Notes under the pieces: generated by a model
What the model saw: the letters and a program-made list of their open reading frames with translations, nothing else
Databases searched by the model: none
Told to the model about the DNA's origin: nothing
Virus record (IMG/VR): IMGVR_UViG_3300036806_000195
Span: 1 to 59,712 of that record
Strand: one strand, 5' to 3'
Source: a virus
Length of the DNA stretch: 59,712 bases
Program-made: the position numbers and the translations under genes
In this document: positions 5,285-56,872 of the stretch, one piece after another
Position numbering within the stretch: the stretch's first letter is position 1
Layout of the letters: the number at the start of each line of letters is the position of its first letter

Positions 5285-5666
5285 GTATAAATTCTGGGAC
5301 AAGCACAACAAAGTATGGGTAGGGCCATACACTTTGAAGCAATTAGCAGATGAGGATGCATTCAGCTCTGACAGGGAATGGAAAGCTATTTGCAGTAAGT
5401 GGGAGTGCTATGAGTCAGTTGAGTATACAGGGCTCAAAGACTGCAAAGGACAGGAGATATACGAGTCTGATATTGTGCGCATTAATCATCCTCACGATAT
5501 GACGGGAGACTTTACCAACGCGATTGGAGAAGTATTCTGGTGGAATGAGGAAGGCGGATGGTACCACGGGAATGGGAACGGCAGGCCACCTAAACGCATG
5601 CGGAAGTATGCAGAGGTGATAGGCAACATCTACGAGAACAGCGAGCTCTTGCAGAAGCAAGATTGA
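5268..5666 (+). CDS. YopX-family protein
   Basis: The protein has 132 residues from the ATG at 5268, preceded by GAGGGAAAG. The body matches the YopX pattern: SVEYTGLKDCKGQEIYESDIV, then a GEVFWW strand, then YAEVIGNIYENSELL at the end. YopX proteins are small beta-rich proteins of unknown role, common in phages of Firmicutes and related groups. The extra N-terminal segment (KYKFWDKHNKVWVGPYTLKQLADE) looks like a second small domain. Confidence 0.82.
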   Translation: MPRESKYKFWDKHNKVWVGPYTLKQLADEDAFSSDREWKAICSKWECYESVEYTGLKDCKGQEIYESDIVRINHPHDMTGDFTNAIGEVFWWNEEGGWYHGNGNGRPPKRMRKYAEVIGNIYENSELLQKQD

Positions 5667-5757
5667 CGCAAGTGCTACACTGAGGATGCCATCGTAGTGT
5701 GAGTCCGCCGCCTGACTCGAGCAGGTTACAACGAGGGTGTGCAGTGAAAGCGCGGAC

Positions 5758-5793
5758 AAGAGCCTCTCTTTGGGCAACTGAAGAGAGGCTCTT
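5758..5793 (+). terminator. 13-bp stem-loop
   Basis: AAGAGCCTCTCTT (5758-5770) pairs perfectly with AAGAGAGGCTCTT (5781-5793) around a 10-base loop. It is followed by ATTATG rather than a clear T-run, so it may be a transcript-end or RNA-stabilising hairpin for the short unit starting near TACACT (5686). Confidence 0.5.
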
Positions 5794-5910
5794 ATTATGC
5801 CCAAATTCATCCTCACCAGAAGCTTCCTAGACCCTCTTACCTCGACACATTGGTACAAAGTACCACCTCTCGCATATGCCTCTCAATCGCACTCAGAGCT
5901 ATGTCAGTGT

Positions 5911-5966
5911 AAAATCTATAGAAATCTACAAGCTTTCACAGAAATATGTAGATTTCTATAGATTTT
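5911..5966. repeat. 20-bp perfect inverted repeat, candidate attP/recombinase sites
   Basis: AAAATCTATAGAAATCTACA (5911-5930) is exactly inverted at 5947-5966, separated by 16 bases. Each arm itself contains two copies of AAATCTAYA, giving four related boxes. The AT-rich composition and position between the integrase gene and tRNA-like genes fit an attachment site with recombinase or excisionase arm sites. No host junction is available to prove the core. Confidence 0.5.
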
Positions 5967-6061
5967 TCTGTTATGCTTGAGATGAATTCAGATCTTTTGA
6001 TCATAGGTCAGTGTAGCGCATGGGGGAGAGCGTTATGCTGACCTACCATACGAGTAGTTAT

Positions 6062-6146
6062 GTGCATGCCGCTGACGGTAAAGTGGATTACTCATCATGA
6101 AATAAGGGTGAGTACAGTCCTGTAGGTTCGACTCCTGCCATGCACA
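6062..6146 (+). tRNA. tRNA-like element with 14-base anticodon-region loop
   Basis: The acceptor GTGCATG/CATGCAC is perfect (8 bp if the flanking T-A is counted). The T arm is GTAGG-TTCGACT-CCTGC. A stem TACTCA/TGAGTA sits where the anticodon stem should be but encloses 14 bases (TCATGAAATAAGGG) instead of 7. The D arm is irregular (CCGCT/AGTGG) and bases 8-9 seem absent. It could be a degenerate tRNA, a type II tRNA with a variable arm AGGG/TCCT, or a tRNA with an inserted segment. Amino-acid identity cannot be assigned. Confidence 0.45.
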
Positions 6147-6148
6147 CC

Positions 6149-6210
6149 GTCGCCTATCATGGTGACTCATTGGACGCAATGATGACAGGATCGTGACCTG
6201 CTAGGCGACC
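6149..6210 (+). tRNA. tRNA-like hairpin, degenerate
   Basis: GTCGCCTA (6149-6156) pairs with TAGGCGAC (6203-6210) like an acceptor stem. It encloses a TCATTG-GACG-CAATGA hairpin and a CAGG-ATCGTGA-CCTG hairpin in the positions of anticodon and T arms. The total is about 62 bases with no normal D arm and a non-canonical T loop. It may be a decayed tRNA or a tRNA-mimicking RNA. Confidence 0.3.
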
Positions 6211-6222
6211 GAACTAGATCAA

Positions 6223-6297
6223 GCATGAGTAGCTTAGTTGGTGAAAGCGCTGTCTTCATAAGACAGAGATGCGCGAGTTCAAATCTCGCCTCATGCA
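6223..6297 (+). tRNA. tRNA with CAT anticodon (Met or Ile2)
   Basis: A complete cloverleaf: acceptor GCATGAG/CTCATGC, D arm GCTTAGTTGGTGAAAGC, anticodon stem CTGTC/GACAG with loop TTCATAA (anticodon CAT at 6257-6259), T arm GCGAG-TTCAAAT-CTCGC, discriminator A. CCA is not encoded. Elongator Met is the simple reading; an Ile tRNA with modified C34 is the alternative. Confidence 0.92.
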
Positions 6298-6302
6298 CGT
6301 AT

Positions 6303-6374
6303 TCTCCCTTAGCTCAGTGGCAGAGCGCGAGCGTGAAGACCTCGGCGTCGGTGGTTCAATTCCATCAGGGAGAG
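6303..6374 (+). tRNA. tRNA-Phe (GAA)
   Basis: Acceptor TCTCCCT/AGGGAGA, D arm GCTCAGTGGCAGAGC, anticodon stem CGAGC/CCTCG with one mismatched closing pair, loop GTGAAGA with anticodon GAA (6335-6337), T arm GGTGG-TTCAATT-CCATC with one imperfect pair. The weak anticodon stem is slightly unusual but the fold is complete. CCA is not encoded. Confidence 0.8.
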
Positions 6375-6377
6375 CTT

Positions 6378-6603: not shown

Positions 6604-7098
6604 ATGTCATCAGGATATAATCAGAATTTATCATCAAATGCATTAGATGTTTGGAGAAAACAGTTATTGGGAAGTCGCAAGAAAAGAATATTCATGACTG
6701 TAGGACTGCCGGCATCAGGTAAGACCACATGGGCTAGAGAATATGTGACAAGCAATCTGAGTACCATCAGAGTGAATAAGGATGAAATAAGGCAAATGCT
6801 TCACAATGGTATCTACTCAGAGGGTCGCGAGGAATTCGTTATAGCGATTCGCAACTCTATCATTAGAACGGCTCTAGATGCTGGCTGTGATGTTATCGTT
6901 GATGATACGAACTTTAATCCTAAGCATCAAATGAGCATATCTGCAATAGCCCATGAATACGATGCTCTCGTAGAGATTAAAAACTTCACTGATGTTCCTT
7001 TGGAGGTATGTTTAGAGCGTAATCATGAGAGAGGATATCCTGTCCCCCAAGAGGCTATTGAACGAATGCATGAGCAGTATGTGAAGGTGGAAGACTGA
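6604..7098 (+). CDS. Polynucleotide kinase-like P-loop kinase
   Basis: The protein has 164 residues. Walker A is GLPASGKTTWA (G34-K40), followed by VNKDEIRQML, the strand VDDTNFNPKH and a lid-like RNHERGYPVPQEAIERMHEQY. These match in order the kinase domain of T4 polynucleotide kinase (P-loop, catalytic Asp segment, DTN motif, Arg lid). The phosphatase domain of T4 Pnkp is absent. The family phosphorylates 5'-OH ends of RNA or DNA and repairs tRNAs cut in the anticodon loop. It starts 27 bases after the tRNA array. No ligase was recognised. A more general AAA_33 kinase is the alternative. Confidence 0.8.
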   Translation: MSSGYNQNLSSNALDVWRKQLLGSRKKRIFMTVGLPASGKTTWAREYVTSNLSTIRVNKDEIRQMLHNGIYSEGREEFVIAIRNSIIRTALDAGCDVIVDDTNFNPKHQMSISAIAHEYDALVEIKNFTDVPLEVCLERNHERGYPVPQEAIERMHEQYVKVED

Positions 7099-7745: not shown

Positions 7746-8405
7746 ATGGATGAGGAACGCAAAGTATGGGAACAGAATATAGAGCAAGGGGAGCCTGATC
7801 TCTGGTATGGTCGGTTCGTCAAATTCATGCGCTTGGGAACTAGACGCTCCGTGAACGCTATATTTCAAAAAGAAGCCAAGAAAAGCCAAGAGAAAACAAG
7901 AACGAATGCGGGCCCAGAATGGTACGAAGCTGCAAAACAATGGAATTGGGCTCAAAGAGCAAAAGAGTATGATACATATCAAAGATCGGAAGAAGACAGG
8001 ATTATAGAAGAGGAACGAGAGAAAGTGCTTAGATCTGGCTTTGCTTTGCAGCATAAGCGTATCGAGTTACTTGATAAGCTCTCTCGCAAGTTGATCAGAT
8101 ATGCCAACGATGAGGAAAAGGTATGGATTCCGGAGACGAAAACAACCTCATTTGGAGAGGATAAGTCGCAAGTCGTCGAGAAAGTCACGTTCAATGCTCC
8201 ACTCTTTCAGCAGATTAGGAGTTACCAGGCGGACATAGCCGCTGAAATGGGAGAGCGAGTCAAGAAAACTGAAATCACCGGCAAGAATGGCGGCCCTATT
8301 CAGATGGAACGTGATCCAAACCTACAACTTCTCACAGATGAAGAATTAGCGCAAGCCCAACGTCTTGCAACACAGCTTTCAAGCAGGCAGGAAGGTATTG
8401 AATGA
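7746..8405 (+). CDS. terS: Terminase small subunit
   Basis: The protein has 219 residues. The N-terminal part has LWYGRFVKFMRLGTRRSVNAIFQ and then PEWYEAAKQWNWAQRAKEYD, the paired helix-turn-helix signature of one class of phage small terminase subunits found directly before TerL. A coiled-coil middle and an acidic, Gln-rich tail follow. It would recognise the packaging site and load DNA onto TerL. It overlaps terL by four bases (ATGA). Confidence 0.8.
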   Translation: MDEERKVWEQNIEQGEPDLWYGRFVKFMRLGTRRSVNAIFQKEAKKSQEKTRTNAGPEWYEAAKQWNWAQRAKEYDTYQRSEEDRIIEEEREKVLRSGFALQHKRIELLDKLSRKLIRYANDEEKVWIPETKTTSFGEDKSQVVEKVTFNAPLFQQIRSYQADIAAEMGERVKKTEITGKNGGPIQMERDPNLQLLTDEELAQAQRLATQLSSRQEGIE

Positions 8406-9973
8406 CATCAGTGTTGCAAGACCTAGTAGATAGCCGCAAAATAGCGAATGAAGTGCGTGAACGAGCTCGGGAGTCATTCAATGCTTTTATTCGTCTTGCA
8501 TGGGATGTTGTTGAGCCTGGTGTGCCTCTGCTATGGAATTGGCATATTGATGCAATTGCAGAGCATCTAGAGGCAGTATATAGCGGTGAGATTAATCGAT
8601 TTATCTGTAATATAGCACCTGGCCATGCAAAGTCAACGATCTTCAGTGTGATGTTTCCCTGCTGGATGTGGATCAAGAATCCTACCACGAGATGGCTTTG
8701 TGCCTCTCACAGCCTAGATTTAGCTATTCGGGATAGTCGCAATTGTCGTAATCTTATTGAGTCGGAATGGTTTCAAATGTGCTTTGGAGATATCTTTCAG
8801 CTCTCTGGAGACCAGAATGTAAAAAGCTTCTTTGAAAATAATCACCGTGGCTATCGAATGGCTCTCTCAGTTGGATCAAAGAGCGGAACAGGGAAGCGGG
8901 GCACACATCTGCTTATAGATGATCCAAATAACGCGGAAGCAGGTGAATCCGACATTGAAAAAACCATCAGGTGGTTTGGCAATACATGGATGAGTCGCAT
9001 CAATTCGTACGAAACAGGGGCCATGATAGTTGTTGGGCAGAGGGTAGGTGAAAAAGATCTTACAGGTCATATTCTTGAGCTTGGCGGTTGGGAACATCTT
9101 TGTTTGCCTGAAGAATTTGAGCCTGACCGTAAAAGTTTTACCTGTATCGTGTCCAACTCAAATAGTCCATATGCATGGAAAGGGTGTGACCCTCGCAAGG
9201 AAGAGGGTGAAGTGCTCTGGACTAATAAGTTCCCTAAAGAAATTCTCGATAACCTTAAGAAGTCAGTTGGAAGTTTCACGTATGCATCTCAGTTCCAGCA
9301 ACGCCCTGCACCCGCTGGAGGAGGACATTTCAAACAAGGCTGGTTTAGGTATTTCACCGAAGAGCGTGAGTACTATCAGCTAGAAACGTCTGAAGGCCTG
9401 AAGCGGATACTCAAGACATCCTGCTGGCTCTTTATGACTGAAGACCTAGCAATCTCGCAAAAAACCACAGCAGATTACACGGTCTTTTGCATTTGGGCCG
9501 TGACTCCTGAGAAAGACCTGTTACTCATAGCTCGACTGCGTGCACGCCTAGATAACCCCGAACAACAAAAGCAGACAGAACTATTCTATTATCGGTACCT
9601 CCCTGAATACATAAAAATAGAGTCAATAGCCTATCAATTGGCATTAGTGCAGCAATTGCGTTCACGTGGACTTCCAATCAAGCGATACAATCCAATCAAG
9701 GACAAAGTATCACGTGCTACCACAGCAGCCGTCTATTATGAGGCAGGTAAGGTATTCCATCCTAAACGTGCGAGTTGGCTTGTTGAGTGGGAAGATGAGC
9801 TTCTAGCTTTCCCGTTCGGAGCGCACGACGATCAAGTAGATAATGCGTCAATGGCATGTGATGAGATGGCTAGACCAAGAGGGGGTGGTATAGTTATCGA
9901 TACTGAGCCGGCAAAACAACACCAACAAGAACAACAGCAGTATGAAGAGGAGGATGAATTAGCATGGCGATAA
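8402..9973 (+). CDS. terL: Terminase large subunit
   Basis: The protein has 523 residues. The ATPase domain has a Walker A-like loop APGHAKST (72-79) and Walker B LLIDDP with Asp173. The C-terminal RNase H-like nuclease has EDLA (Asp348) and HDDQVDNA (Asp476/477), the expected metal-binding acids. It drives DNA packaging through the portal and cuts concatemers. The Gln-rich C-terminus overlaps the portal start by 10 bases. It heads the late operon together with terS. Confidence 0.95.
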   Translation: MTSVLQDLVDSRKIANEVRERARESFNAFIRLAWDVVEPGVPLLWNWHIDAIAEHLEAVYSGEINRFICNIAPGHAKSTIFSVMFPCWMWIKNPTTRWLCASHSLDLAIRDSRNCRNLIESEWFQMCFGDIFQLSGDQNVKSFFENNHRGYRMALSVGSKSGTGKRGTHLLIDDPNNAEAGESDIEKTIRWFGNTWMSRINSYETGAMIVVGQRVGEKDLTGHILELGGWEHLCLPEEFEPDRKSFTCIVSNSNSPYAWKGCDPRKEEGEVLWTNKFPKEILDNLKKSVGSFTYASQFQQRPAPAGGGHFKQGWFRYFTEEREYYQLETSEGLKRILKTSCWLFMTEDLAISQKTTADYTVFCIWAVTPEKDLLLIARLRARLDNPEQQKQTELFYYRYLPEYIKIESIAYQLALVQQLRSRGLPIKRYNPIKDKVSRATTAAVYYEAGKVFHPKRASWLVEWEDELLAFPFGAHDDQVDNASMACDEMARPRGGGIVIDTEPAKQHQQEQQQYEEEDELAWR

Positions 9974-12042
9974 GCTTCCCCAACTGGCTACGCATCCCTA
10001 AACGCCGTTCCCGTATAACAGAACGCCCATTCCAAGCACCTGCCTATCCCCCTAACTCTCATACCTCAGAGATGTATGAGCGTAATGTGGGACTCATCAA
10101 CTTTGAAGAGGCAACCAAGAGGAGTGCAAAAGCCCCTGTTTCCAGAGGGCCTAAAAACCTCTCTATGGCATGGGATGATACTTCTTTCGGGCTTGTGCGT
10201 GAGGGCTCTCAGGATGATAGGCAGAAGAAAGAGACCTGCTACTTGGTCTATTGCGGCAACCAGTGGGTTTCAGGGTGCGTAGATACGACTGCTGAGCGCA
10301 TGATATCTGGTGGCTGGGAGACTGTTGAGGTAGAACGAGGCAAGGGTAGTTCTAAAAATCAAGCAAGAGTAAAACAGCTATTTGACTTTGAGGATATAGA
10401 AGAGGATTTCTTACAGTTTTTCAACTCAATTGCAACGGATTTGCTTATATTTGGCGAAGCCTTTGCTGAGATGACATACGGCCCTGACGGCTTGGTAGCG
10501 AACCTCTACACAGTAGACTCTATAACTATGACGACACACTTTGATATGCATGGTGTCATCACAGGGTATACGCAACGCTTAGAGAAGAGTACTGAGGTTG
10601 TAAGATTTGAGCCGCGTGAGATTATCAGATGGTGGCTGCCAGATCCTAAATCGAAAAAGAAAGCGCTCTCTCCCATTGAAAAGCTGAAAGACCCAGTATT
10701 TTTAGATCGATCAATGGTGACGTGGGGTGAAAAGTTCTTTCGCCAAGGCGGGAAACCAAGTTACTGGGTAGGCATGGGGCCAGACTCCAATGAGGTTGAC
10801 GCAAGTAGATATATCAAGTGGTACAAAGAGAATTATACTGGCATGGAGAATGCACATATCCCTCCTGTGATGTATGGTGGGAGTGAGATACACGAATATG
10901 GTAAAGGTTCTATTGAGCTTGATTTTGATAAGAGCCAGGATAACCAGCGTGATAGAGCTTTGGTTGTTTATGGTGTTCCTCCAGCTATGTTGGGTATTAT
11001 CGAGAGTGGGAACATTGGAGGTGGAACGGGAGAATCTCAAAACAAGTCATTTATCTATAATAAGGTCATCCCATTAGAAAACCGTATTCTTGAGAAGCTG
11101 AATTATAGAGCAGTGAAACAAGGACTATTTATTGAGGACTGGAAAGTAAAGACGCGTCATGCGGATTATCGCGATGATAAGGATATTGCGGAAATTGAGA
11201 ACAAAGAGATCGGCAATGGGACGCTCACAAGAAATGAGGCACGCCAAGAACGAGGCCGTACAGAGGTACCAGGTGGCGACGTGCCAACTATCACTACTGG
11301 CAATGCCATCACTCCTGTAGCTCGCTTACAGACAATGGAGCAAGAGCAGACGCAGCATGCTCAACTCTCATTGCAAGGCGCTCAGCAGGCTATGCAGAAG
11401 CTTGCTCAGGGTGACCAGGATAACTCAGACAATCAAGACCAGCCTCCGGAGGATAAGCAACCTCAGCAGAAGGACAAGAATGCCAAGGCAAAAGAGGCTC
11501 TCTATCGCCAATGGCTAAGAGAAGATCTGATCGAAGCGAATAATACTGGGGTCATGGTAGCCTTCTTTTTGAAGCCTAGCGAGGCTCAAGCGCTGGTCTT
11601 AGACACTGGTGAGCCTATAGACGAGCTGCATTGCACGTTGGCATTCCTGGGGGACAAGAGTCAGCTAGGGGATACTGAGGCGCTCAAGAGAGCAGTGCAA
11701 ACCTATGCTGAGAATGCTTTTACTCTGCAAGGGTGCGTATCTGGCATAGGCCGCTTTACGTCAGTACCCGATGGTGAGCCTACTCCTGTCTATGCTTCGG
11801 TAGATGCTCCCGGGCTGCCTGAGTGGCGTCAAGATCTAGTGAAGACCTTGCAAGATGCTGGTTTCCCTCCTGATACCGCACACGGCTATACACCTCATAT
11901 AACCCTCTCGTATATCCCTGTTAGTGATCCTATGCCAATAGAGAGTGTTCCTGCTATTGATCTGAGCTTTGATCTGCTCTGGCTGGCAATTGGTGATGAG
12001 CGATATGCATATGCATTAGAGAGGGAAGAAGATAATGGCTAG
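9964..12042 (+). CDS. Portal protein fused to a 2H phosphoesterase domain
   Basis: The protein has 692 residues. Residues about 60-450 resemble siphovirus portal proteins (position after TerL, FGEAFAEM, PPAMLGI, NQRDRALVVYGVP). After a Gln-rich linker (about 455-515), residues about 525-690 form a 2H phosphoesterase (LigT/2'-5' RNA ligase-like) domain with both catalytic tetrapeptides, His556-Cys-Thr and His645-Ile-Thr, spaced as in the family. 2H enzymes open 2',3'-cyclic phosphates or 2'-5' linkages, and the phage anti-CBASS enzyme Acb1 shares the fold. Twelve fused copies per virion would be expected. Whether the domain is released or stays attached is unknown. Confidence 0.87.
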   Translation: MAISFPNWLRIPKRRSRITERPFQAPAYPPNSHTSEMYERNVGLINFEEATKRSAKAPVSRGPKNLSMAWDDTSFGLVREGSQDDRQKKETCYLVYCGNQWVSGCVDTTAERMISGGWETVEVERGKGSSKNQARVKQLFDFEDIEEDFLQFFNSIATDLLIFGEAFAEMTYGPDGLVANLYTVDSITMTTHFDMHGVITGYTQRLEKSTEVVRFEPREIIRWWLPDPKSKKKALSPIEKLKDPVFLDRSMVTWGEKFFRQGGKPSYWVGMGPDSNEVDASRYIKWYKENYTGMENAHIPPVMYGGSEIHEYGKGSIELDFDKSQDNQRDRALVVYGVPPAMLGIIESGNIGGGTGESQNKSFIYNKVIPLENRILEKLNYRAVKQGLFIEDWKVKTRHADYRDDKDIAEIENKEIGNGTLTRNEARQERGRTEVPGGDVPTITTGNAITPVARLQTMEQEQTQHAQLSLQGAQQAMQKLAQGDQDNSDNQDQPPEDKQPQQKDKNAKAKEALYRQWLREDLIEANNTGVMVAFFLKPSEAQALVLDTGEPIDELHCTLAFLGDKSQLGDTEALKRAVQTYAENAFTLQGCVSGIGRFTSVPDGEPTPVYASVDAPGLPEWRQDLVKTLQDAGFPPDTAHGYTPHITLSYIPVSDPMPIESVPAIDLSFDLLWLAIGDERYAYALEREEDNG

Positions 12043-12379
12043 AATAACTGAACTGAAGAGGATTTATAGACATCGAACTGAGGAAGAGATGCACAATGCA
12101 TTGCAGCAGTTTATCGATGGTAAGCATGAGTTGCGCATTCCTCCCTACGAAGAAGACGCTGATATGGTATTAGGGGATGTGATCAATGAGCTTCTAGAGG
12201 CAAGGAAGAAGCTTGCCGTGCTTAATGCTCTGGTAGAACGGCTGCTTCCTGATAGTCAGGCACGTGAAGATGCGCTAGAACGGGCAAGTTCCGAAAAGGT
12301 GATAGAGCCATGTATAGAACTGCTACAACCTGTGAAGACTCCTTTGTATGACCTAATGCGGGAAGGAAAGAAGGAATGA
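12035..12379 (+). CDS. Hypothetical helical protein
   Basis: The protein has 114 residues and overlaps the portal gene by eight bases. It is almost entirely predicted helix, with ELLEARKKLAVLNALVERLLPD as a likely coiled coil. No family is recognised. Small helical proteins at this place sometimes act as portal or scaffold accessory factors, but that is only positional inference. Confidence 0.55.
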   Translation: MARITELKRIYRHRTEEEMHNALQQFIDGKHELRIPPYEEDADMVLGDVINELLEARKKLAVLNALVERLLPDSQAREDALERASSEKVIEPCIELLQPVKTPLYDLMREGKKE

Positions 12380-12573: not shown

Positions 12574-12582
12574 TGCTAATGG

Positions 12583-12665
12583 TTGCCTGTAGCTCAGTTG
12601 GTAGAGCGGCGTCGATATGCTTGACAGAGGACGCTCTGTCGTGGGTTCGAGTCCCACCAGGCAAC
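12583..12665 (+). tRNA. tRNA with 16-base anticodon loop
   Basis: Acceptor TTGCCTG/CAGGCAA is perfect and extends by GG/CC to 9 bp. The D arm GCTC-AGTTGGTA-GAGC is perfect, as is the T arm GTGGG-TTCGAGT-CCCAC. The anticodon stem GCGTC/GACGC is perfect but encloses 16 bases (12614-12629) where 7 are expected. A competing hairpin GACAGAG-GACG-CTCTGTC (12623-12640) could form instead, like a long variable arm. Identity cannot be assigned. The gene has its own candidate -10 and a strong terminator at 12709. Confidence 0.7.
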
Positions 12666-12683
12666 CCCAACTGAATACGCAAC

Positions 12684-12758: not shown

Positions 12759-13916
12759 ATGGAAGACCGCATAGCTAGCATTAAATCCTATTTCTTACAG
12801 GACGATGCCATATCTCTGAATGGCCGTAAATATCCCAAGGAGACTGTTGACCGTCTTTTGCTCCATGCTCAAGAGCAACTTGCAGATCCGAATGCCCTCC
12901 CACTTACCTGCTACCTCTCACATGATGATGCTTGGCTTGACGCAACGCGTAATATCGTTGGCAAGATTGTGGGTATAGGCCGCGAACGAGACTGGCTTTA
13001 CGCTATGATCGATGTACCAGACACTCAGGCAGGCCATGATGCTGCCGAGCTTACCAAGGGTGGCTATATCCGATCACAGAGCTTGCGTGCTATCAATGCT
13101 GAGATGTTCATAGACAAGAACGAGCCTCTTCCTTTGGTCGGTGGTCAAAACATTTGTCTCACTGGCATTGATTTCACTTCATCGCCTGGCATTCCTAATG
13201 CACGCGTAGAATACGTTTCAGAATCATCTGAATCTAAAGAACCTCAAAATATCCGAGAAATCTTTCACACTTCTAAAGACACTCTACTCATTGAAGAATT
13301 CACACGTCAGGAGAGCAAGGATATTCCTGCATCTCCTAAAGAAAAGGAGCAATCTATGACACCAGAGGAAAAAGCTCAGCTCCTGAAGGAGTTCAGGGAA
13401 TCTCTCCTAGCTGAACAGCAACAGCAGAAGGAAGCTGAGAAGCACCCACCGCAAGGGGGCGACGCTACTATTCCTGTTCAGACCAAGCCGACCGCTGAGG
13501 ATGCATTGAAGGTCCTGCAAGAGGCTGGCTACACAGTCGCAGCCCCCAAGACGCAAGAGGAGATCATGCAAGAGAAAGCTGATCAGATGCTTGCGAAGAT
13601 GAGAGAGGAATTCGATCAGAAGCTTGCAGAGGAGATGAAAAAGTTTCAGCCTCGCTTCCCTGCCCAAAGAAAAAGCATGGTTGAAGGCTCAAATGCAGAG
13701 GAGAAGCCAGCGAAGAAGCCCTACTACCGCAATGGGGACTACTTAAAAGAGCAGATGCGGGATGTAAATGTGCGTCTTGATTTACTTGACCGCTCAAAGC
13801 CAAGGCCAGAGTGGTACAACGCCGAACGGATGCTCAAGGAGCTTGAAGTCGAGCTGATGGGTATCATGGATGCTCAGCATAGCTTTGATAATAGCTTACA
13901 GATGGGAGAAGTATAA
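12759..13916 (+). CDS. Capsid maturation protease with scaffold-like C-terminus
   Basis: The protein has 385 residues, with GAGAGG upstream. The N-terminal 160 residues look like a phage prohead protease: LSHDDAW (His about 54), NIVGKIVGIGRE, LYAMIDV and GYIRSQSLRAI with a candidate Ser nucleophile, then LTGIDFTSSPGIPNARV. Residues about 190-300 are Glu/Gln/Lys-rich coiled coil, like a scaffold. An internal ATG at 13357 with an AAGGAG site could yield a separate scaffold product, as in other fused protease-scaffold genes. It is two bases upstream of the capsid gene. Confidence 0.75.
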   Translation: MEDRIASIKSYFLQDDAISLNGRKYPKETVDRLLLHAQEQLADPNALPLTCYLSHDDAWLDATRNIVGKIVGIGRERDWLYAMIDVPDTQAGHDAAELTKGGYIRSQSLRAINAEMFIDKNEPLPLVGGQNICLTGIDFTSSPGIPNARVEYVSESSESKEPQNIREIFHTSKDTLLIEEFTRQESKDIPASPKEKEQSMTPEEKAQLLKEFRESLLAEQQQQKEAEKHPPQGGDATIPVQTKPTAEDALKVLQEAGYTVAAPKTQEEIMQEKADQMLAKMREEFDQKLAEEMKKFQPRFPAQRKSMVEGSNAEEKPAKKPYYRNGDYLKEQMRDVNVRLDLLDRSKPRPEWYNAERMLKELEVELMGIMDAQHSFDNSLQMGEV

Positions 13917-13917
13917 T

Positions 13918-15369
13918 ATGCCAGCATCGCTTCAAGAAATCAGAGAGGCCTTTAGTCTGGCTTCATCTGGAGGTGCTCTCAATCTTGTTCTGAAACAAAT
14001 TGACAGCGTGCTTACTGATCTACAGAGAAAATGGGGTCCATTGGGGAGAGCTATCCCGCGTCGCACATGGGAAACAGATATCTTTTTCTTCAACAAAAGA
14101 ACAGCACTTCCCCAGCCTCAACATACAACAGAAGCCCCTCCTACCAGTGGCGTGGGCTCAGTAGCAGCAAGCAATTCTGTTTATACTCAGGGGCAATTCC
14201 CGATTAAGCATACAGAATCGATTGGGGATCTCAGTAAATTCACTGTGCAAGTTGCACGTGCCAACGGTAACCTGTTCGATCTCGAATTAGGCGCTCATGC
14301 TAAGGCTATGGAGTGGCTAGAGGAAACGACGCACATTTATGGGTCGTCTCAGGCCACGCTCAACACGAAGAGACCTCAGTGGGACGGGATCGATTTGATG
14401 GTTGCCAATGCTAATAAAATCGATGCCAATACAGCAGTGCTCGCATTGGGCATGATGGACAATGCTATTGATGCAGTGCGTGGTCGCTATGCGCAAGAGC
14501 TTGGCACGGACTACTTTTGGATGATGAGCCCAAAGATGCAATCAGCCGTGAATACTCTTCATGTTCAGAATGCGCATTATGTTCAGCAAATGACTCGCAT
14601 GTTCTTGAGAGACGACTATGGTGATCCAAATGCGCCTGTCGCTGACAATGCTATAGACGGAGGCGTAGAAGTCCAGACTTACCGTAACATTCCGATTGTG
14701 GTTTCTTCGTTTATGGGCAACCAAGGAAGCATGGGTACTGTCTCAACGACTGGCAATACTGGCTCTGGCTCCAGTCTCTTGGCTGCGACCACCTACTACT
14801 ACCGGGTGGAAGCGGTCACGCGCTACGGTTTGACTACTGCTTCTGCGGAGGCTTCACAAGCCCCTTCTGCTGACGGAAAGAACGTCGCGCTTTCCTGGAC
14901 AACCCCACAGACTACCGATGCTGACGGCAATATCATTGATATTATTGGCTATCGCGTATTCCGTGGCACCTCTAGCGGTCAAACCAGCCTTTATGCACTT
15001 GTTGCTGCCTATGACATCACCAGTGATGCAGCTGTTACCTCGTTCACAGATACTGGATTGATTCAAAATCCTGCCTCGTCTACTGGCTCTGCTCTCTACT
15101 GGGCTACCGTCGCTAGTTCTGGCGGAAATGCAGTCTCTGACGAGGTGACCTTCCCACGCGTGCAGACTGGTACTCAGATCGTTGAGGACATCTTCCTCAT
15201 CCCACGTGATCCTGACATCTTGCTCTGCCCAGAAGTGAATCCCATCCAGACAGAGCTCCTTGCCGTTGTGAACGCGAGGTCTCGCCAATTTGCGCTAACT
15301 GCTGACAAGACGCTTGCGTTACGTGCACCGGCCTATGCTGCCAAGATCTCGAGAGTGAGGGCTGCATAA
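13918..15369 (+). CDS. Major capsid protein with Fn3-like insertion
   Basis: The protein has 483 residues from the ATG at 13918 (GGAGAAG upstream). The N-terminal two thirds and the C-terminus fit an HK97-type capsid protein of this class (amphipathic N-arm, DYFWMMSPKMQ, final SRQFALTADKTLALRAPAYAAKI). Between about residues 270 and 400 lies a fibronectin III-like module (TTYYYRVEAVTRYGLTTAS, NVALSWTTP, GYRVFRGTSSGQTSLYALVA, SFTDTG). Such Ig/Fn3 modules usually decorate the capsid surface and may bind host glycans. Confidence 0.85.
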   Translation: MPASLQEIREAFSLASSGGALNLVLKQIDSVLTDLQRKWGPLGRAIPRRTWETDIFFFNKRTALPQPQHTTEAPPTSGVGSVAASNSVYTQGQFPIKHTESIGDLSKFTVQVARANGNLFDLELGAHAKAMEWLEETTHIYGSSQATLNTKRPQWDGIDLMVANANKIDANTAVLALGMMDNAIDAVRGRYAQELGTDYFWMMSPKMQSAVNTLHVQNAHYVQQMTRMFLRDDYGDPNAPVADNAIDGGVEVQTYRNIPIVVSSFMGNQGSMGTVSTTGNTGSGSSLLAATTYYYRVEAVTRYGLTTASAEASQAPSADGKNVALSWTTPQTTDADGNIIDIIGYRVFRGTSSGQTSLYALVAAYDITSDAAVTSFTDTGLIQNPASSTGSALYWATVASSGGNAVSDEVTFPRVQTGTQIVEDIFLIPRDPDILLCPEVNPIQTELLAVVNARSRQFALTADKTLALRAPAYAAKISRVRAA

Positions 15370-30305: not shown

Positions 30306-31541
30306 ATGGGTGTAACATTCTTCGTTCCAACTATTCCTTCTCCGCAGTACTGCTACTTACCGTCACAATGGGACACCGCGTGGAAGAACGCCAAAGCAAC
30401 GATTGCAAACCAAAAGGTAAGCGTTGTTGGCATTGGGGACTCAATTACGGCAGGGCAGGGATCAACAAATATCTTGTCTGCGTCGTGGTGGGCACTTCTC
30501 AGGTCCGCTATTCTTGCAGCCAATAGCAATTTGCTAGGCGGGGACCATTACGGCATGATCTACGGACCTGCCTCTATCGGCTATAATCCGGCAGGATCAC
30601 CCTTGACCGTTAATGGCGTGAAGGGGACGAATTACGACTGGAATTACAACGCTTTTAATTCGTCTGTGTCCAACACAACGGCGCAGACGCCTTTTATCTC
30701 AGTAACGCCATCGTATGCCGTCATAGGCTTTGATGTCCTCTATCTGGATCTCTCACCTGGCTCACCGGCTTGGACTTACAATATTGACGGCGGATCAAAC
30801 ACCAATGTTGTATGTAGTGGGGATGGAACAGCCGCGAACTCACAAATCAAAAAAGTCTCTATCACTGGTCTCGCGGCTGGCACGCATACACTCAATATTA
30901 ATGCATTTTCTAGCGGCTATCGATGCAATATTGTTGGCGTCACTGCCTATGCTGCAACGTCTGGCTTGTGCTTTGCCAATATGGGCAGCTCGGGTATGGG
31001 TCTGGTCAATGGCTATACCAGCTCGCAGAATAATCTGACCGACACAACGGGGTATCCGCCTGATAGGCTAGCGCTCTACCAAGGCTACACAGGGACAACA
31101 GCAAGCCCATCTGCATTATCAGGTCTCGGATTTCCAACGCAACCCGATTTAGCAATCATAGCATTTGGTGTAAATGATGCTTATAACGGTACAACGCTTA
31201 CACAGATGAGAGATAGTATTGCTCGGCTTGTGTGGTCTCTTCGCTACGGTAAATCCGACGCATGTAGCATCGTCATCGTGGCGATGTTTGCCCCTGATGG
31301 TACTGCCAGTACTTCGACGTCGGTCGCAAATAATGACTATGGCAGCGGAGCCACCGCCTATCGCGACTTGCGTGCAGCCATGCTCCAGGTCGCACAGGCC
31401 GAGATGTGCGCTTTCGTTGACGTACATGGACTTTTTGGACGTTTTGTGGTGACCAACGGATGGATCACAAGTACAAGTGATCTCCACCCAGCGCCAGCGG
31501 GGCATCTAAAAATAGCAAATTTGCTTGGAACGATTGTTTAA
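30306..31541 (+). CDS. SGNH/GDSL hydrolase, tail-associated esterase
   Basis: The protein has 411 residues. Block I is VGIGDSITAGQG with nucleophile Ser46, followed by a central jelly-roll-like insertion, the Gly-Asn block IAFGVNDAYN, and the catalytic SSDLHPAPAGHL (Asp392, His394). Family members remove acetyl or other acyl groups from polysaccharides. At this position it probably acts on the host cell-surface glycan during adsorption. The gene order (tail protein, esterase, amidase) supports a virion protein. Confidence 0.85.
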   Translation: MGVTFFVPTIPSPQYCYLPSQWDTAWKNAKATIANQKVSVVGIGDSITAGQGSTNILSASWWALLRSAILAANSNLLGGDHYGMIYGPASIGYNPAGSPLTVNGVKGTNYDWNYNAFNSSVSNTTAQTPFISVTPSYAVIGFDVLYLDLSPGSPAWTYNIDGGSNTNVVCSGDGTAANSQIKKVSITGLAAGTHTLNINAFSSGYRCNIVGVTAYAATSGLCFANMGSSGMGLVNGYTSSQNNLTDTTGYPPDRLALYQGYTGTTASPSALSGLGFPTQPDLAIIAFGVNDAYNGTTLTQMRDSIARLVWSLRYGKSDACSIVIVAMFAPDGTASTSTSVANNDYGSGATAYRDLRAAMLQVAQAEMCAFVDVHGLFGRFVVTNGWITSTSDLHPAPAGHLKIANLLGTIV

Positions 31542-50197: not shown

Positions 50198-50995
50198 TCA
50201 CACTCTCCAATACTTTCTCGTCTCTAGCGACGGCTCTTCACTACTCCTCACAAGTCCGGCGTGCTGTAGCTGCGAGATAGCCGTGTAGGCCTTATTGAGG
50301 CGTGCTTGCCCTTGTGGCACTGAATGGTGCGCATGGAGCAATGACTCGACCTCTGCAAGCGTGTAGCCCTCTCTCTGCGATAGCATCGTGAGCACAGTAT
50401 CCGCCAGCTCATTCGACTTATTCAGCACAGCCACCACGTTCAGATCCAAGCCCTCAGTATTCCTCTCGAACTTGATATCCATCAGGCAAGACGGCGCTCC
50501 ATGTGTCATGCACTCGCGCTCAGCTATCACGGCATGCTCTCCAAAGTGCGTAGCTGCTCCTTCGACCATGCCGCGCATCAGAGGACAGAGCAGCCGGTGA
50601 TGGTCATATCTCAGTAAGAGCCTGCTATAGTCATCTGAGTAGGCACCAAATGGAAAGAGCGGCGTCTGGGCACGTGAGCCATTCATCTGCATGAGAAGAT
50701 CTCGGGCGGATTTTGCCCTCTCCAGGAGATATGCGCAATGCTGATCTATCCATTTGTTGTTGAGGAAATATTGACCGTACTCGCGCAGTAGCACAGGTGC
50801 AAAGATACCCGTGGCCACAGACACGCCTCGAACACCCTGGATGAAGAGCTCATCATTGTAGATGCGCGATGCTACGACCCACTTCGCCTCTATTCCCTCT
50901 AGCTCCTCTATCTTCTGCCTGTAAATGTCCCTCACACTACTTCCATACTTCTCTTCAAGATATTTCTCCCACATCGCTAAAATCAAACCATGCAT
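50198..50995 (-). CDS. V4R/H-NOX-like sensor fused to a winged helix
   Basis: The protein has 265 residues, with AAGGAGG before the ATG. The start MHGLILAMWEKYLEEKYGSS and the later segment YDHHRLLCPLMRGMVE-GAATHFGEHA...ECMTHGAPSCLMDIKF follow the H-NOX/V4R fold. The heme-distal YxSxR motif is changed to YDHHR (130-134), and the proximal His expected near residue 97 is Ala in my alignment, so heme binding is doubtful. Cys137, Cys162 and Cys170 match V4R-type positions. Residues about 190-265 (LADTVLTMLSQREGYTLAEVESLLHAHH...AYTAISQLQHAGLVRSSEE) look like a wHTH. Likely a small-molecule-responsive regulator. Confidence 0.65.
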   Translation of the reverse strand: MHGLILAMWEKYLEEKYGSSVRDIYRQKIEELEGIEAKWVVASRIYNDELFIQGVRGVSVATGIFAPVLLREYGQYFLNNKWIDQHCAYLLERAKSARDLLMQMNGSRAQTPLFPFGAYSDDYSRLLLRYDHHRLLCPLMRGMVEGAATHFGEHAVIAERECMTHGAPSCLMDIKFERNTEGLDLNVVAVLNKSNELADTVLTMLSQREGYTLAEVESLLHAHHSVPQGQARLNKAYTAISQLQHAGLVRSSEEPSLETRKYWRV

Positions 50996-55738: not shown

Positions 55739-56872
55739 ATGAAATACCGAATAAATGACATTGTTGTAGGAGAGAGAAAACGAGAGTCTAGCGACGTTGC
55801 AGCATTGGCTGAAAGCATTAAAGAAATCGGGTTAATCAATCCAATCACCATTAGACCGGATGGCACTCTTAATACTGGGCTGAATCGACTAGAAGCATGC
55901 AGGTCTTTAGGTTGGGATGAGATTGAAGTCAACATCACACAGCTTGAAGACTTGGATGCTGAGCTAGCAGAGATTGACGAGAACCTTATCCGTAACGAGC
56001 TGCACTGGGCAGATAGAGACAAGCAACTCAAGAGACGCAAAGAAATTTATGAGACAAAGCACCCTGAGACAAAACGAGGCAATAACATAGAAAAGACTCT
56101 TTTAAGATCAAAAGAGGAAGTGAATCCGAATAATTCGGATTCACTTCCCGGATTCTCTCAAGACACTGCAAATAAATCTGGACTATCTAGGGACACTATA
56201 GAACAGGGCATCAAACGAGCTACCGCTTTTACAGATGATCAGATGAAAACCTTGAAGCAAGCAGAAGTCACCCAGACAGAAGCAACAAAGATAGCGCGGT
56301 TGCCTCAACCGGAAAGAGAGGAAGTCGTCAAGCAGGTATCCAAGGGTGTCCCCACTGCTCTGCTAACCAGCGAGACCAACGAATGGTATACCCCCCCTGA
56401 GTATGTAGCGATGGCCCGTAAATTGATGAAAGGCATAGACCTAGATCCGGCTAGCAACGCCTACGCAAACGAGAGAGTAGTACAGGCTAAAGACTTTTAC
56501 GATATCCAGGCAAATGGATTAGACAAAGAGTGGCGCGGCCGTGTCTGGTTAAATCCCCCTTACGGACGTGATGAGGGCGGGAGCAATCAAGAGGCATGGT
56601 CACGTCGGCTTATTGAACAATATGAGGCGGGTATCACTAAAGAGGCTATCTTGCTCGTCAATGCCAACACTGAGGCAAAATGGTTTCAGCCGCTCTATAA
56701 CTACCTCATCTGCTTTACTAACCACAGAATACGCTTCTATAACACTGAGGGCACCTCTAGCCAGCCTACACAAGGGAATGCATTCATCTATTTTGGACAC
56801 CAGAAAGACCGTTTTACTGAGCTTTTCAGCACCTTTGGCGTCGTTATACGGAGGATTGATAATGGTTGCTAA
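55739..56872 (+). CDS. ParB-like domain fused to DNA adenine methyltransferase
   Basis: The protein has 377 residues. Residues 1-90 are a ParB/Srx-type domain (ALAESIKEIGLINPITIRPDGTLNTGLNRLEACRSLGWDEIEVNI). A linker with HTH-like repeats follows (SRDTIEQGIKRATAFTDDQMKTLKQAEVTQTEATKIARLPQ). Residues about 215-375 match phage N6-adenine methyltransferases: NEWYTPPEYV, IDLDPASN, the catalytic NPPYG (Asn272-Tyr275), and a C-terminal FGVVIRRI. It may protect phage DNA from host restriction or mark it for regulation. It overlaps the next gene by 11 bases. Confidence 0.88.
   Translation: MKYRINDIVVGERKRESSDVAALAESIKEIGLINPITIRPDGTLNTGLNRLEACRSLGWDEIEVNITQLEDLDAELAEIDENLIRNELHWADRDKQLKRRKEIYETKHPETKRGNNIEKTLLRSKEEVNPNNSDSLPGFSQDTANKSGLSRDTIEQGIKRATAFTDDQMKTLKQAEVTQTEATKIARLPQPEREEVVKQVSKGVPTALLTSETNEWYTPPEYVAMARKLMKGIDLDPASNAYANERVVQAKDFYDIQANGLDKEWRGRVWLNPPYGRDEGGSNQEAWSRRLIEQYEAGITKEAILLVNANTEAKWFQPLYNYLICFTNHRIRFYNTEGTSSQPTQGNAFIYFGHQKDRFTELFSTFGVVIRRIDNGC

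Follow-up and report, generated by a model that had tools for sequence, protein, structure and literature searches.

The Portal-2H Gene and Its Surroundings

The window, that is, the whole stretch of 59,712 nucleotides of viral DNA that was analyzed, contains an open reading frame (ORF) of 692 aa at 9964-12042 on the plus strand, which encodes an HK97-type portal with a 2H phosphoesterase domain attached to its end through a flexible linker. The first-pass annotation had read this ORF as a portal protein carrying a 2H domain, and the ORF, the portal match, and the 2H match are all present. The features of the gene and of the head-gene block around it are the following.

8402-9973, plus strand: terminase large subunit, directly upstream of the portal (PF17289, 5.6e-10; PHROG 38, 2e-91)
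9964-11370, plus strand: portal core, HK97-type, residues 1-469 (Pfam PF04860, PHROG 2662/12, Foldseek)
11317-11533, plus strand: predicted crown helix (452-482), Q/D/K-rich linker (482-508), and short helix (505-523), overlapping the end of the core (AlphaFold model; the portals of close relatives end here)
11536-12033, plus strand: 2H phosphoesterase domain, residues 525-690, with H556/T558 and H645/T647 (Pfam, PHROG, motifs, conservation, fold)
12035-12379, plus strand: small ORF overlapping the portal stop (similar ORF in the relative L021 only; absent from L003 and L004, which carry 2H)
12759-13916, plus strand: head maturation protease (XkdF/S77-like), candidate processor of the linker (PHROG 207, 1.9e-8; PF03420 Peptidase_S77, 0.016, below cut-off)
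13870-15369, plus strand: major head protein (PHROG 752, 4.5e-15)

Residues 102-430 match the Pfam family PF04860 (Phage_portal) with E=1.7e-35 and 123 bits against a cut-off of 39.1, PHROG portal families are matched with E=6e-48, and the full-length model resembles in Foldseek the portals of HK97, GTA, and phage 812. The score lies below the TIGR01537 equivalog cut-off. Profile, fold, and the terminase and head gene neighbors together identify an HK97-type portal, and the gene order terminase, portal, protease, major head protein is the expected one. A tRNA-His with the odd anticodon ATG is predicted within the head-gene block (12582-12669, plus strand) and is possibly a false call.

Elsewhere in the window, a GDSL lipase/acylhydrolase ORF lies downstream of the tape-measure gene (30306-31541, plus strand), and one ORF at 55739-56872 (plus strand) combines ParB_N (below cut-off) and Dam-type adenine methyltransferase domains. 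A protein of 265 aa (50198-50995, minus strand) matches Pfam HNOB (haem-NO-binding, 1.8e-12) and V4R; inspection by eye suggests that the proximal His of H-NOX and the YxSxR motif are absent and that the protein may end in a winged helix. It is perhaps a sensor-type regulator.

Fold and Active Site of the 2H Domain

Both HxT motifs claimed for residues about 525-690 (His556-Cys-Thr and His645-Ile-Thr) are located there, HCT at 556 and HIT at 645, which is the two-motif signature of the 2H superfamily. Scanned by itself, the C-terminal part matches PF13563 (2_5_RNA_ligase2, 6e-7) and PF02834 (LigT_PEase, 1.3e-6), both above the curated cut-offs, and PHROG 14859 matches the domain with E=1e-27. 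The fold is also that of a real 2H domain. The domain model, built from an alignment of the window domain and 64 domains from viral contigs, has a mean pLDDT of 92.7, and its best Foldseek match among solved structures is the Deinococcus CPDase (drCPDase, 8e-9), followed by a Thermus 2H protein and E. coli LigT (1e-7). The RNase L antagonist, rotavirus VP3, and Usb1 are matched lower, and Acb1 at 2e-4; the matches to CPDase, LigT, the RNase L antagonist, Usb1, and Acb1 place the model within the superfamily fold. The proposal would have fallen with no match to 2H enzymes, and the match to LigT/CPDase structures is clear.

The first-pass annotation had called for comparison with both Acb1 and LigT. 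The likeness to LigT and drCPDase held, whereas Acb1 proved a remote match. In a profile search with the domain, PH0099 (6e-10) and drCPDase (4e-9) were found, Acb1 at 0.03-0.1. The Acb1 family PF23474 gives 0.07 and 13.3 bits against a cut-off of 27, and by these tests the domain is not an Acb1; LigT, ThpR, and CPDase match far better by profile and fold. The ThpR/LigT equivalog TIGR02258 is likewise matched below its cut-off (39.2 bits versus 65.7). By sequence, the window domain is a LigT-like 2H domain and not a proven ThpR equivalog. It shares with LigT/ThpR (PF13563, PF02834, TIGR02258) the fold and profile, the HxT/HxT motifs, and the GxGxF segment; it differs in its score below the TIGR02258 cut-off, in being fused to a portal, and in a nearly invariant Tyr650 after the second motif. 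Cellular LigT has Arg at this position. Acb1 (T4 57B), which was shown in 2022 to use its HxT tetrad against 3′3′-cGAMP (PMC9117128), shares the 2H fold and the HxT/HxT tetrad with the window domain. It is, in contrast, a stand-alone soluble enzyme with a weak sequence match and a lower fold score. PADLOC gave no match for the portal or the 2H domain.

Across 15 phage domains that diverge to as little as 22% identity, H556, T558, H645, and T647 are the sole invariant columns. This set is mostly derived from tblastn, and all its members except L003, L004, and the window were found without motif seeding. In the set of 65 domains from viral contigs, H556, T558, G594, F598, R622, H645, and T647 never vary, and 64 domains have Tyr650. 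That scan used two peptide patterns, however, and the one that included the second HxT motif is matched by 62 of the 65, so that the conservation of H645 and T647 there is partly built in. For this reason, the 15-domain set is the fair test of conservation; the tblastn-derived phage domains and the proteins of Deinococcus and Streptomyces are free of the motif-seed bias. Loss of either His in related phages, which would have spoken against the proposal, was seen in neither set. The active site thus looks intact, and the domain is most likely, in prediction, a metal-independent phosphodiesterase. Comparison of the window with its relatives gives a dN/dS of about 0.08-0.12 for the 2H domain at dS values of 0.8 to 1.7; the domain is under purifying selection.

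The nearest solved relatives are RNA 2′,3′-cyclic phosphodiesterases, and TIGR02258 is matched even if below cut-off. The domain might therefore serve in RNA repair or processing, hydrolyzing 2′,3′-cyclic phosphates on cleaved tRNAs as LigT and CPDase do, together with a P-loop kinase of the PNK/L-seryl-tRNA kinase (PSTK) type, which is encoded at 6604-7098 (plus strand) directly after two tRNA genes (6223-6375). This role is rather unlikely. The window gives no match to RNA_ligase (PF09414) or RtcB. Iyer et al. (2017; PMC5512222) never saw a link between these 2H versions and RNA ligases, and a repair role would not account for the many fusions of 2H to head proteins.

Linker and Predicted Crown Helix

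Between the portal core and the 2H domain, the first-pass annotation had seen a Gln-rich linker. It is recovered in part: in the AlphaFold model, pLDDT falls below 50 at residues 482-508 and again at 518-525, but a long helix (452-482) and a short one (505-523) are also predicted in this region. In known portal structures, the C-terminal crown sits in the head lumen. These structures, together with the predicted order of crown helix, disorder, and 2H domain, support a model in which the 2H domain would be a tethered enzyme facing the lumen. Of 38 portal fusions, 6 have the motif [LIM]xE[AGS] ahead of the 2H domain, against a mean of 2.3 after shuffling (p 0.016), and most of these belong to the clade of the window itself; as a putative cleavage motif of the LIE/A type, it is a weak and clade-bound signal.

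Selection, Exchange, and Loss of the Module

The portal core and the 2H domain of the window do not share one history. Four-taxon site patterns group the window with L004 in the portal core (28 sites versus 4 and 1) and with L003 in the 2H domain (11 sites versus 1 and 2). As the two topologies conflict, the domain moves as a module. Moreover, four close portals, 52-78% identical to that of the window, lack the 2H domain. Those of L005/L138 and L139 stop at the linker (...KDEKPKG), as does that of L137, and that of L140 bears a different C-terminal tail. No 2H domain was found elsewhere on the contigs of these four relatives, which are possibly fragments (the L139 contig measures 67 kb). Exchange apart from the portal core and absence from four close relatives show that the 2H domain is a dispensable, exchangeable cargo module. 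In L003, L004, and L021, the joint reads “...NMR-FRxMPxEYDP” and looks like the start of a formerly separate gene. Directly behind the 2H-less portal of L139, the ORF at 5552-6169 appears by eye to be a DnaQ-type exonuclease, which suggests a variable slot.

A cargo module of this kind recalls toxins. MuF proteins are known to carry toxin domains (PMC5576092), and a prophage ART toxin with immunity proteins has been documented (PMC11699363). The 2H domain could be imagined as a toxin of the MuF kind, an RNase aimed at competitors and linked to an immunity gene. Such a role is very unlikely, since no downstream gene tracks the presence of 2H among the window, L003, L004, L021, and L005; the linked immunity gene of a MuF-type polymorphic toxin was not found. 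The small ORF at 12035-12379 was considered as an immunity gene and is unconvincing because it is uncoupled from 2H among the relatives.

Distribution and Carriers

By tblastn, the 2H domain was found in 320 phage records, nearly all with actinobacterial hosts. In most phages examined, the gene for a stand-alone 2H protein is at most a few genes away from the portal gene, and twice it adjoins an ADP-ribosyltransferase (ART) gene. In GMA6, Chidiebere, E3, Cantare, and Bixzunavirus, it lies one to a few genes behind the portal, and in RedWattleHog further downstream, behind the major capsid gene; Nike, TP1604, and GTE6 have 2H within MuF or head-maturation-protease proteins. One 2H protein of an Arthrobacter phage (MF140427.1 gene 18; L006 4857-5975) is labelled “aldolase class I”, apparently a misannotation.

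The scan of viral contigs gave 249 relatives, of which 80 were kept. HMMs resolved 94 2H ORFs into portal-2H (30), portal-2H-MuF (5), 2H-protease (12), 2H-capsid (3), MuF with 2H (4), and ART-2H (1), with 39 of the 94 outside the HMM classes and part of these also unplaced after PHROGs. The PHROGs extended the carriers by the portal families 64, 146, 113, and 776. By Pfam, PHROGs, and HMMs, the carriers comprise portal, portal-2H-MuF, MuF, XkdF/S78 protease, Mu-like protease, Phage_capsid_4, and ART; none of the classified carriers was recognised as a tail or replication protein. Judged from these families, the recognised carriers share a location inside the head or in its shell during assembly. 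The window gene itself, an inner-head protein fusion within the head-gene block, has the gene arrangement of a virion-packaged, head-fused effector. Carriage inside the head, as first proposed, is supported by this recurrent fusion to head-interior proteins. Two further architectures were observed: an ART fused to 2H behind a portal-MuF ORF (L027 4660-7341) and a 1621-aa ORF joining intein/Hint, NUDIX, and 2H in one reading frame (L089 1762-6624).

In a tree of 83 domains, the portal label must have been gained or lost at least 12 times and the carrier class changed at least 18 times (unassigned rows left out); many deep forks are unsupported, though, and the starred branches alone are compatible with a single origin of the portal label. 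Outside viral contigs, the same 2H domain forms the C-terminus of a DUF935 (Mu-like portal) protein on the plasmid pDAETH-4 of Deinococcus aetherius (a plasmid-prophage), encoded just before a phage protease. A 2H-domain scan of genome contigs gave hosts in Chloroflexota, Actinomycetota, Deinococcota, Bacillota, Myxococcota, and others; no relatives of the window portal were found in this collection. For the window phage, a Chloroflexota host is plausible through the contig L106, which carries in addition a relative of the window gene at 7746-8405.

The breadth of carriers bears on two other roles. The presence of 2H on portals of several families could suggest a structural one, with the domain as a catalytically idle ornament of the lumen that aids packaging or assembly. 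This is highly improbable, given that all four catalytic residues are invariant, that close relatives do without 2H, and that the same domain occurs on protease, capsid, and MuF. The prohead protease and capsid fusions would place the enzyme at assembling heads, and the newly made portal-2H protein might do its work in the producing cell at a late stage, before heads are assembled or while they are, for instance on defense signals to which assembly intermediates give rise; neither injection nor cleavage would be needed. Action of this kind does not require fusion to inner-head proteins in particular, and the associations with ART recall injected enzymes like T4 Alt; it is an unlikely explanation.

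Proposed Function as Packaged Cargo

The favored reading, to which a probability of roughly 0.55 is given, is that the portal subunit comes with pre-packaged enzymatic cargo, which would be freed and delivered at infection and would cut RNA ends or signalling nucleotides. With the standard portal stoichiometry of twelve subunits, as many as twelve 2H domains per head would project on flexible linkers from the inner side of the portal into the head lumen. The head protease would then cleave the linker and free the 2H domain, a step required for action in the new host because the portal ring stays in the head. The freed domain would enter the cell along with the DNA and cut 2′,3′-cyclic phosphate, 2′-5′, or cyclic-oligonucleotide linkages, in host RNA ends or defense signals. 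Lumen position, cleavage, ejection, substrate, and counter-defense role are the steps that we infer; portal identity, 2H fold, active-site residues, purifying selection, gain, loss, and exchange of the module, and recurrent fusion to head proteins were computed here. No virion proteomics for a clear relative was found in the papers searched; a virion-associated “phosphoesterase” is reported for Thermobifida phage P318, where it is encoded in the replication cluster. A more specific version is tentative: the 2H domain, entering the cell with the first DNA, would degrade cyclic or 2′-5′ oligonucleotide defense signals ahead of phage gene expression, the same module having been independently mounted on portal, MuF, protease, and capsid as interchangeable carriers.

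The counter-defense hypothesis for portal-2H proteins is already published and dates from 2017. Fusions of 2H with MuF or portal domains appear in Iyer et al. (2017; PMC5512222), where the domain is proposed to be a Usb1-like RNase or to destroy 2′-5′A or cyclic nucleotides; a 2022 survey (PMC9503650) reports 2H-MuF/portal fusions and repeats the packaged-and-injected idea with RNase or anti-nucleotide-signalling roles. The published fusions resemble the window in that a 2H domain sits on portal or MuF, and packaging and injection have been proposed for them. Recorded here in addition are the linker, the module exchange, the losses, and the prohead protease, capsid, and ART fusions; these three kinds of fusion may already have been reported in 2017. 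The window is thus another portal-2H member of a described kind, and the comparative detail is new. No experiments on portal-2H proteins of this kind were found in the papers searched. T4 Alt and the MuF-fused ADP-ribosyltransferases are likewise enzymes carried with head proteins, and ART is fused or adjacent in relatives of the window; their catalytic domain is unrelated, and the carrier in the window is the portal.

Clean test objects are offered by the close portals with and without 2H and by the plasmid-prophage of the isolate Deinococcus aetherius, which has the same architecture. If delivered and active, the portal-borne 2H domain would be a defense-signal or RNA-end enzyme present at infection, before phage translation, for which soluble anti-CBASS enzymes of the Acb1 type must wait.
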